Assembly: GCA_013287585.1 (NCBI GenBank)
Contig: JABDDN010000006.1
Location: 1 to 64,000 of the forward strand
Direction: 5' to 3'
Length of the DNA stretch: 64,000 nt
DNA from: Nitrososphaerota archaeon
Lineage (GTDB): Archaea; Thermoproteota; Nitrososphaeria; Nitrososphaerales; Nitrosopumilaceae
Part shown: positions 1 to 2,384 of the stretch, one piece after another
Position numbering within the stretch: position 1 is the stretch's first letter
Layout: every line of letters starts with the position of its first letter
Notes under the pieces: generated by a model
What the model was told of the DNA's origin: nothing
Databases searched by the model: none
What the model saw: the letters and a program-made list of their open reading frames with translations, nothing else
Made by a program: the position numbers and the translations under genes

Positions 1-312
1 TTTCATTGAGTAAATGTTTACAAACCCTATTACAGCTAGAGCACTTGCACCGAGGATTCCACTCCATAGGTTGAAACTATCTGTTTTTAGGAAACTACCA
101 ACTGCAAAAATTACGAAGATCATTTCAGCCAAAACTGACAGCATATGCCCGGCACTAAAACCAGTTCCTACCCATCTAGAATGTTTAGCAGCATTATGCA
201 AACGGACTAAGCTGTCTATCGCAGAAATATGATCAACATCTAGACCATGACGAAGTCCAAGAATAATCATAGTGGGAATTGATATTGCAATAAATGGCCA
301 GAAATCTGTCAT
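1..312 (-). CDS. Nickel/cobalt permease (NiCoT/HoxN-NixA type), 3' end outside window
   Basis: The first 104 residues of a membrane permease are visible; the gene runs off the left edge. After a hydrophobic first helix comes RHGLDVDHISAID, which fits the HoxN/NixA signature (R-H-x-x-D-x-D-H) that lines the Ni/Co translocation path, followed by a second helix with GFSAGHMLSV. The ATG lies at 310-312 and a TATA-like box at about 346-356. It is divergent from the regulator at 435, with an inverted repeat between them. Metal specificity (Ni versus Co) cannot be read from this part. The reverse-strand frame at 14-232 is its shadow. Confidence 0.85.
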   Translation of the reverse strand, partial: MTDFWPFIAISIPTMIILGLRHGLDVDHISAIDSLVRLHNAAKHSRWVGTGFSAGHMLSVLAEMIFVIFAVGSFLKTDSFNLWSGILGASALAVIGFVNIYSMK

Positions 313-1087: not shown

Positions 1088-1426
1088 TCATCTTTGATCA
1101 TTTGGGGTCAGGGTGATTGTTGGCTCAGGTTTTTTTATGCTTACGTCTGCTCTACTTATTCTGCTTTTGTAAGTTTTAAATTTCTTGCCATTGTCTGATA
1201 ATATCCATTTATCAACTTTAACAAGAGCAATATCTTCAAGATCTGAAATCTTTTTGTAAACTGAACTAAGAGGAATTCCATGTGTTTCAGATAATTCCAT
1301 TGCAGTTTTTCCTTGTTTGATTATGGAAAACAAAATTACTCTTGATTGTGCGTCAGCTAGAGCTTCAATGACTTTTTGATTTACATCATATTTTTTTAAT
1401 TGTGAAAGTGAATGTCTTTTCCTCAA
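1088..1426 (-). CDS. Winged-helix transcriptional regulator, divergent from ZIP transporter
   Basis: A 112-aa protein with one ArsR-like winged helix. Residues 25-80 contain AQSRVILFSIIKQGKTAMEL, the turn, then GIPLSSVYKKISDLEDIALV. The C-terminal 30 residues are basic and probably disordered. The only usable start in frame is TTG at 1424-1426; an AT box at 1453-1460 is about 27 nt upstream. Divergent transcription with the ZIP gene and the palindromes between them suggest control of that transporter and itself. No CxC metal site is visible. Confidence 0.7.
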   Translation of the reverse strand: MRKRHSLSQLKKYDVNQKVIEALADAQSRVILFSIIKQGKTAMELSETHGIPLSSVYKKISDLEDIALVKVDKWILSDNGKKFKTYKSRISRADVSIKKPEPTITLTPNDQR

Positions 1427-1437
1427 TGATTTTTCAA

Positions 1438-1452
1438 TTAGGACAGCCTAAC
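1438..1452. promoter_or_regulatory. DtxR/MntR-like box over the regulator promoter
   Basis: TTAGG-ACAG-CCTAA is a perfect 5-nt inverted repeat, lying between the AT box and the start of the leftward regulator, so it would cover the transcription start. The 15-nt site matches the reverse complement of the site at 1512-1526 at 13 of 15 positions. It resembles boxes bound by DtxR/MntR-family repressors. Confidence 0.6.
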
Positions 1453-1468
1453 TATTTAAATGACATGT

Positions 1469-1496
1469 AACTCATTCTAAAATCTTAGAATGAGTT
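1469..1496. promoter_or_regulatory. 28-nt perfect inverted repeat in the centre of a divergent promoter
   Basis: Arms AACTCATTCTA and TAGAATGAGTT (11 nt each, no mismatch) with a 6-nt spacer sit exactly between the two AT boxes of the divergent genes. This is typical of a dimer-binding operator. The adjacent winged-helix protein is the best candidate binder. Confidence 0.65.
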
Positions 1497-1501
1497 TCGC
1501 G

Positions 1502-1509
1502 TTTAAATA
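1502..1509 (+). promoter_or_regulatory. TATA-like box of the ZIP transporter gene
   Basis: TTTAAATA is centred about 30 nt upstream of the ATG at 1536. This spacing predicts a transcript starting at or very near the start codon (leaderless). Confidence 0.55.
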
Positions 1510-1511
1510 AA

Positions 1512-1526
1512 GTTAGCTTGTCCTAA
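1512..1526. promoter_or_regulatory. DtxR/MntR-like box over the ZIP transporter promoter
   Basis: GTTAG-CTTGTC-CTAAC is an inverted repeat lying between the TATA-like box and the ATG of the ZIP gene, the position of a repressor site. It shares 11 of 14 positions with the operator upstream of mntH (TTAGCTTAGTCTAA). Confidence 0.6.
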
Positions 1527-1535
1527 CTGAGATAT

Positions 1536-2384
1536 ATGATAGATTACTGGCAGCTCTTACTTTTGGGTGCCATAGCTGGTTTCACAATATTTCTAGGTCT
1601 CCCGGTTGCTAGATTACAAAATCTAAGTTCAAAAAAGAAGGGATTTCTTAATGCTCTTGCGCTAGGAATTTTAGTATTTTTAATAATTGATGTCTTTAGT
1701 CATGCGTATGAGACTGCATCAAATGCAGCAACTAATGCGTTTTCTGGAAAAGGAAGTACAGGAGACGCAATAGTTGATCTTGTTGCAATGTTTGGTGGAA
1801 TTGCTATTGGTCTTATTGGATTAGTATACTATGAAACAAAGATAATGACAAAAAAATTTCCACAAATTTTATCACTTGAAAATATTAAGAGCGGTGATGA
1901 ACATCTCCACAAAGTATTCCACGATGCAAGTGCATACAAGCTTGCCATGATGATTGCAATTGGAATTGGTTCTCATAACTTTAGTGAAGGATTGGCTATT
2001 GGTCAATCATATATTGCAGGACAGATAGGACTTGCAATAATTCTGATAATAGGGTTTGGTGCTCATAATACTACTGAAGGATTTGGAATCGCAGGTCCAC
2101 TTACAGGTCTTCTAACAAAGCCATCTGCTAGATTTCTTGCAAAGGTAGGCCTAGTTGGCGGTGGACCAACATTTATCGGTACAATACTTGGTAGTTTGTG
2201 GAACTCTAATATCGCATACATATTGTTCTTATCCATTGCAGGTGGTGCACTCATTTACGTCTCTATGTTAATGTACAATACGGGACGAAAACATACAACA
2301 AACGATGTTCTGATGGTTGGCATTTTTATTGGTCTGTGTATTGGGTTTGTTACAGATCTTGTGGTCACACTTGGCGGTTCATAA
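1536..2384 (+). CDS. ZIP-family divalent metal transporter
   Basis: A 282-aa integral membrane protein with about eight hydrophobic segments. It carries both ZIP metal-site helices: HNFSEGLAIG from His147 and HNTTEGFGIAG from His177. These binuclear-site motifs define the ZIP/ZupT family, which imports Zn, Fe or Mn. A cytoplasmic loop between helices 3 and 4 (about residues 105-135) includes HLHK, often seen as a metal-binding loop in this family. The upstream boxes imply metal-dependent repression. Substrate specificity is not decidable from sequence. Confidence 0.9.
   Translation: MIDYWQLLLLGAIAGFTIFLGLPVARLQNLSSKKKGFLNALALGILVFLIIDVFSHAYETASNAATNAFSGKGSTGDAIVDLVAMFGGIAIGLIGLVYYETKIMTKKFPQILSLENIKSGDEHLHKVFHDASAYKLAMMIAIGIGSHNFSEGLAIGQSYIAGQIGLAIILIIGFGAHNTTEGFGIAGPLTGLLTKPSARFLAKVGLVGGGPTFIGTILGSLWNSNIAYILFLSIAGGALIYVSMLMYNTGRKHTTNDVLMVGIFIGLCIGFVTDLVVTLGGS

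Follow-up and report, generated by a model that had tools for sequence, protein, structure and literature searches.

In the archaeal systems described in the accessible text of PMC4158304 and PMC9426492, repressor sites lie between the TATA box and the start codon, and sites of the TrmB family lie upstream of the BRE/TATA region when they go with activation and downstream of it when they go with repression. Among DtxR-type sensors, Met-Cys-Glu-His is given as the iron-type ligand set in the available parts of PMC10317159 and PMC4805248, with Asp-Glu-Glu-His being the manganese set. In Nitrosotalea, a genus-specific ZIP protein, OG2531 (CUR51883.1), is reported in the available part of PMC5767755 to have been horizontally acquired from Thermoplasmatales relatives and is annotated there as a zinc importer. 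For Nitrosopumilus maritimus, the consulted portions of PMC6776035 and PMC9723733 report no gene for any known importer specific to iron, and consider either general uptake through ZIP proteins or a still uncharacterised iron transporter. A literature search covering titles, abstract openings and few subscription papers found no description of a DtxR regulon, or of the composite motif presented below, in Nitrosopumilaceae.

The REG-ZIP intergenic region

The window, by which we mean the whole 64,000-nucleotide stretch analysed, forms the beginning of contig 6 in a 77% complete genome. It contains divergent genes for REG, a 112-aa single winged-helix regulator (1088-1426, minus strand, with a TTG start at 1426; supported by orthologue alignment and fold comparison, its PF01978 score being under the cut-off), and for a 282-aa ZIP family metal transporter (1536-2384, plus strand) that scores 41.3 bits against PF02535, over the cut-off of 35.1, and 37.5 against the ZupT model, far below its cut-off of 252. 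Positions 1438-1526 between them hold, in symmetric order, an IdeR/DtxR-type site, a TATA box, a palindrome, a second TATA box and a second IdeR/DtxR-type site. The original prediction of a symmetric divergent promoter between a regulator and a ZIP transporter is borne out, since its elements could be located and their arrangement and conservation go beyond chance. The AT box and the TATA noted on the two sides are TTTAAAT at 1454-1460 (minus strand, for REG) and at 1502-1508 (plus strand, for ZIP), the REG TATA segment having a mean column identity of 0.99 over 17 divergent promoters.

Each outer site lies between the TATA box and the start codon of its gene, with the REG TTG 11 nt and the ZIP ATG 9 nt past it. 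The left site (1438-1451, TTAGGACAGCCTAA) is a 5+5 palindrome, TTAGG-N4-CCTAA, whose TTAGG/CCTAA repeats have the spacing contacted by one dimer in DtxR/IdeR-type operators; the pattern is found at one place in the 64 kb (random mean 0.0). The right site (1513-1526, TTAGCTTGTCCTAA) reads TTAG-N6-CTAA, with one arm matching at 4/5 positions. As had been noted, the two are alike in inverted orientation: 1438-1452 (TTAGGACAGCCTAAC) is identical at 13/15 positions to 1512-1526 when the latter is read as its reverse complement (TTAGGACAAGCTAAC). We read both as predicted single-dimer versions of the IdeR box.

The central element (1469-1496) had been described as a 28-nt perfect inverted repeat; its two 12-nt arms are indeed perfect, but its centre, AATC, is not self-complementary, and the element is palindromic at 26/28 positions. 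It is the sole inverted repeat in the 64 kb with perfect arms of at least 12 nt and a loop of at most 8, and ten random Markov windows gave 0, 2, 0, 0, 0, 0, 0, 0, 1 and 0 such repeats, so that by itself it is only moderately rare. The full repeat is a feature of its own genus, with arms identical in 3/4 of the aligned relatives' copies and one change in L022. Across Nitrosotalea, the only elements kept are a 16-bp core within it, TTCYA-N6-TRGAA (1475-1490), which is common to both promoters here, the two TATA boxes and the two TTAG sites. Taken over its full 28 nt, the repeat has a column identity (0.78) that does not surpass the value for the remaining positions (0.81); only the core (0.87), the TATA boxes (0.94, 0.99) and the TTAG elements (0.95, 0.87) lie above the latter. 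A copper-limitation motif of Nitrososphaera viennensis (TTCSGSMTTTGWACYANT, from the accessible text of PMC7785015) was compared and differs from the central palindrome. A further copy of the central repeat, differing by 3 mismatches, occurs in the window's own genome (L020:1501-1528; G000:C1:12927-12954), between PpiC-like and ferredoxin-like genes.

The composite promoter across Nitrosopumilaceae

Among 121 genomes of the family, 109 REG regions and that of the window were read (29 + 80 loci), with an additional REG copy in G057 and the genomes whose matches were weaker or absent set aside; the core was counted in 109 of these 110 regions, L126 being left out for N upstream. TTCY-N8-RGAA occurs within 130 nt upstream of REG in 97/109 promoters from 21 genera, against 1.7 expected from dinucleotide shuffles. 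Core positions outside the search pattern are also kept, position 5 being A in 87/88 and position 12 T in 86/88. The 12 coreless promoters are spread as one each in g6, g8, g10, g11, g13, g15 and g16, two in g2 and three in g5. The core is present upstream of REG with or without a ZIP neighbour, most REG promoters having no ZIP nearby; a single palindrome serving two promoters is, as a refinement of the original description, restricted to divergent lineages. The REG-ZIP interval of G044 (L032) carries two tandem palindromes, TTCC-N8-GGAA and TTCT-N8-AGAA, against a single one in its relatives. The usual neighbours of REG are cbtB-cbtA before it and a second REG-like gene after it. At the contig edge of the window (1-312 and 435-1073), a NicO nickel/cobalt transporter stands where genus relatives (L021, L022, L023) carry cbtB-cbtA, and the DUF4443 regulator adjoining NicO recurs beside cbtBA throughout the family.

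Joined into one strict composite pattern (TTAG-N6-CTAA, gap 0-12, TTTAAA, gap 6-24, TTCY-N8-RGAA), which defines the count, the elements occur in 68 of 121 genomes at 88 places, against 2 matches for the reversed-pattern control, and it is this arrangement and conservation that take the whole element beyond chance. Among the patterns tried it was the only clean one: a longer right-site pattern was too tight, matching in just 11/121 genomes; the palindrome and TATA without TTAG gave many control matches; and TATA and TTAG without the palindrome gave many unrelated matches, chiefly to a repeated TTTAAATCTAGAC...TTAGT block. This block (TTTAAATCTAGAC..AATTAGT-N4-ACTAA), unrelated to the DtxR sites, occurs once per genome in many genera (L209, L212, L235, L226 and L229, around 1501), near a gene starting MDIIKYDVYRGPNIGIY that we take to be aIF6-like.

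The 88 places comprise 70 transporter-side and 18 REG-side promoters. Downstream of the former, assigned by eye on the strength of tblastn matches, family models or the N-terminal sequence, are 18 ZIP genes, 17 FTR1 genes and 32 genes for a PhnD-like binding protein; three are left without a transporter, G060 and G119 at contig ends and contig 82 of G070 with no convincing gene. A TTCY half-site lies at precisely 11 bp from TATA in 68/70. These promoters may share common descent and so are not independent. The palindrome itself is at 11 bp in 37 (ZIP, FTR1 and the divergent ABC gene of G009) and at 24 bp in 32 (ABC operons), with a half-site at 11 bp in 37/37 and 31/32, respectively. On the REG side the spacing between core and TATA is looser, 12-15 bp in divergent and mostly 19 bp in tandem promoters. 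The TTAG site stands 4-5 bp after TATA in 67/70 transporter-side promoters and 3 bp from it in 18/18 divergent REG-side promoters. The proposed two-regulator system is larger than the window and extends across the family, which refines the original picture.

In g14, g17 and g21 this promoter stands before FTR1 iron permeases, and away from REG it precedes the second ZIP of G058 (L204), the ABC operon of g19 (L273) and, on another contig, FTR1 of G104 (L252), the first two being transporter promoters with TTAGG sites that do not adjoin REG (the ZIP is unlinked). TTAGG sites go with the promoters of transporters and, within three genera, with those of REG as well. In L035 and L038, the ZIP gene and right site are absent and the left site is kept, L038 also being without the core. 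Three g14 genomes (L146, L147, L149) have a close ZIP relative beside the REG pair, with TATA present and the TTAG site absent; their composite stands before FTR1 elsewhere (G104) and was not found in G068 and G080. In Nitrosotalea and g1, ZIP lies between REG and a presumed purP-like gene (DUF1246/DUF1297 in Pfam), and in G059 (g11) the ABC operon fills the same interval. Presence of one switch before three unrelated transporters suggests a common metal, probably iron. The ABC binding protein most closely resembles PtxB/PhnD, and its best relatives of known structure are binders of phosphite or phosphonate; the scores of three such proteins against the Transferrin model (21.9, 22.1 and 17.8; cut-off 20.3) are a hint at most. 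N. devanaterra (G008) has a single ZIP match, at the REG-ZIP locus, and this ZIP is therefore probably OG2531; placement of a gained ZIP behind a pre-existing switch would fit the published gain. Two further gene associations were seen. In the two genera of L268 and L270, the gene immediately after FTR1 is hydantoinase/oxoprolinase A-like (L268:499-2616, L270:394-2514; Pfam for L268), and a multicopper oxidase gene in G057 (L201:1588-2784), a possible ferroxidase partner, has a right-type TTAGG site in its promoter, with no clear core.

Candidate regulators and competing readings

The original prediction assigned two operator types to two regulators, a metal sensor outside and the winged-helix protein at the centre, and had made itself answerable to conservation in orthologous promoters. 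The sites are conserved there, so that it survives on this point, and they are separable, the core going with REG and TTAGG with transporters, which supports two regulators well. REG scores 19.8 bits against the TrmB family model PF01978 (cut-off 25.6), its G059 orthologue reaching 25.9; a profile search of the 112-aa protein did not match the second (sugar/effector) domain of classical TrmB members, and the NCBIfam ArsR/SmtB metalloregulator model gave 16.5 bits against a cut-off of 55. The fold is an ArsR-like winged helix, closest to the Pyrococcus heat-shock regulator Phr, which is a repressor. The segment IPLSSVYKK is invariant in 28 aligned orthologues, and REG of the window has no cysteine. 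Among 200 genomes of the class, close matches are confined to its own family, those in other families having E values of 1e-15 to 1e-22. As the core travels with REG, it is simplest to suppose that REG binds the promoter of its own gene, and the core is probably REG's own operator.

For the outer sites, DtxR-family genes are present in 119/121 genomes, usually two per genome. A match was obtained for 46/49 loci (none for L389, L390 and L402); as L189/L393 and L182/L400 each repeat one gene, the counts are of loci. Class A (42 loci) has the Met/Cys/Glu/His primary metal site in 42/42, and class B (4 loci) has Asp-Glu-Glu-His. Only class A was found in the 77% complete window genome (L005:1480-1920; PF01325 59.0 bits, PF02742 68.9 bits). 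In the class-A helix QPSVVQ, Pro and Gln are spaced as Pro39 and Gln43 are in IdeR, and class B has PSVTK, not PSVVQ. Because the iron-type ligands are present in every class-A locus, the sensor at the outer sites is probably an iron-type DtxR. A search of both strands of the window genome for a wider DtxR regulon with TTAGG-N5-CTAA gave 14 matches against 22 in the reversed control, so that this bare pattern is uninformative; one match, in G000:C25, falls within an open reading frame. TTAG-N6-CTAA is absent from the 80 nt upstream of 46 dtxR loci, a result that offers no sign of dtxR autoregulation.

With moderate confidence, we propose that this is a divergent two-regulator archaeal promoter, one version of a composite metal-uptake promoter spread through a whole family of ammonia-oxidising archaea, the Nitrosopumilaceae. 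The outer TTAGG-N4-SCTAA elements would be single-dimer sites of an iron-type DtxR which, when metal-loaded, would sit between TATA and start codon and block RNA polymerase, turning off REG and ZIP when metal is plentiful. Metal shortage would free DtxR from them and allow both genes to come on. A REG dimer on the central TTCYA-N6-TRGAA, just upstream of the BRE/TATA of both genes, would most likely recruit TBP/TFB for the transporter and also regulate its own gene. The roles of DtxR as repressor and REG as probable activator are proposed since the site positions follow the archaeal and TrmB-family rule, and the constant distance of 11 bp in front of the transporters, set against the looser REG side, suits contact with TBP/TFB. 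Several results speak against the model: the missing TTAG site beside ZIP in three g14 genomes, the phosphite- or phosphonate-binding relatives of the ABC protein, the Phr-like fold of REG, the lack of TTAG-N6-CTAA ahead of the dtxR loci, the restriction of the strict pattern to 68 of 121 genomes, and the possible shared ancestry of the 70 promoters.

It is also conceivable, though we consider it unlikely, that both operators repress, with REG an autorepressor hindering TFB/TBP loading on both promoters and DtxR a second, metal-gated repressor. The inferred binding of REG to its own promoter in 97/109 cases is typical of autorepressors, and the likeness to Phr and the looser REG-side spacing point the same way; yet ahead of every ZIP and FTR1 gene 11 bp separate the end of the core from TATA, leaving the BRE free rather than covered, and upstream sites accompany activation in the accessible text of the TrmB papers (PMC4158304, PMC9426492). 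That the central repeat is a terminator or hairpin, i.e. an RNA or DNA structural element rather than an operator, is extremely improbable: its perfect 12-bp arms and 4-nt loop could form a hairpin, but it lies upstream of both TATA boxes and should not be transcribed, tandem loci with different flanks retain the core ahead of REG, and G044 has it twice. The terminator reading was rejected, no terminator-like site being called at the repeat.

The identity of the metal bears on the outer sites, which might bind an MntR-like second DtxR paralogue responding to manganese, or answer to zinc, with ZIP importing Mn or Zn. ZIP proteins are often broad. The four class-B loci carry the manganese ligand set, and the accessible text of PMC5767755 annotates the ZIP of Nitrosotalea as importing zinc; against this, the same promoter precedes iron permeases, the class-B helix departs from PSVVQ, and the outer sites match the IdeR half-target. 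We accordingly regard another metal as rather improbable, and iron is favoured, by FTR1 and by the class-A DtxR.

Under the two-regulator model with an iron-type DtxR, the promoter would have been retained while the transporter behind it was swapped for an ABC operon, FTR1 or ZIP. A bolder reading, to which we give a little under even weight, is that the promoter persisted through the radiation of Nitrosopumilaceae as the transporter was exchanged among three non-homologous families, that the 'phosphonate' ABC operon in Nitrosopumilus and Nitrosopelagicus relatives transports iron, either free or chelated, and that the 'zinc' ZIP of Nitrosotalea imports iron and was acquired into an iron switch already in place. 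Since an iron-uptake promoter would have persisted through these exchanges, this reading would put names to the missing iron importers. The shared promoter, before an iron permease, ABC operon or ZIP according to genus, gives a short, testable list of candidates, and the model proposes, for a group abundant worldwide, a concrete circuit that specifies operators, regulators and spacing.

Comparison with described systems

For MDR1 of Archaeoglobus fulgidus, kin of DtxR, we know of no second operator for another regulator. As described in the accessible text of PMC4158304, it resembles the proposed DtxR in being a metal-dependent repressor that blocks RNA polymerase downstream of TATA, a likeness of description and not of sequence. 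The Nitrosotalea ZIP OG2531 is predicted to carry zinc in PMC5767755, the available part of which makes no mention of its promoter. OxsR and TrmBL1/Tgr of the TrmB family share with REG a TrmB-like winged helix and a palindrome upstream of BRE/TATA, OxsR also being single-domain (PMC9426492, PMC4158304, in the parts available); in contrast, OxsR needs C24 and REG has no cysteine, REG is without the sugar domain, and its operator is unlike both TATCAC-N5-GTGATA and the CG-rich motif. The outer sites read as the 14-bp one-dimer target, TTAGG-N4-SCTAA, of the IdeR/DtxR iron box (TTAGGTTAGSCTAACCTAA; PMC10317159, as far as available), and the candidate regulator likewise has the Met/Cys/Glu/His primary site; here, one dimer target takes the place of an overlapping pair, in an archaeal promoter and with a DtxR of about 146 aa that has no SH3 domain.
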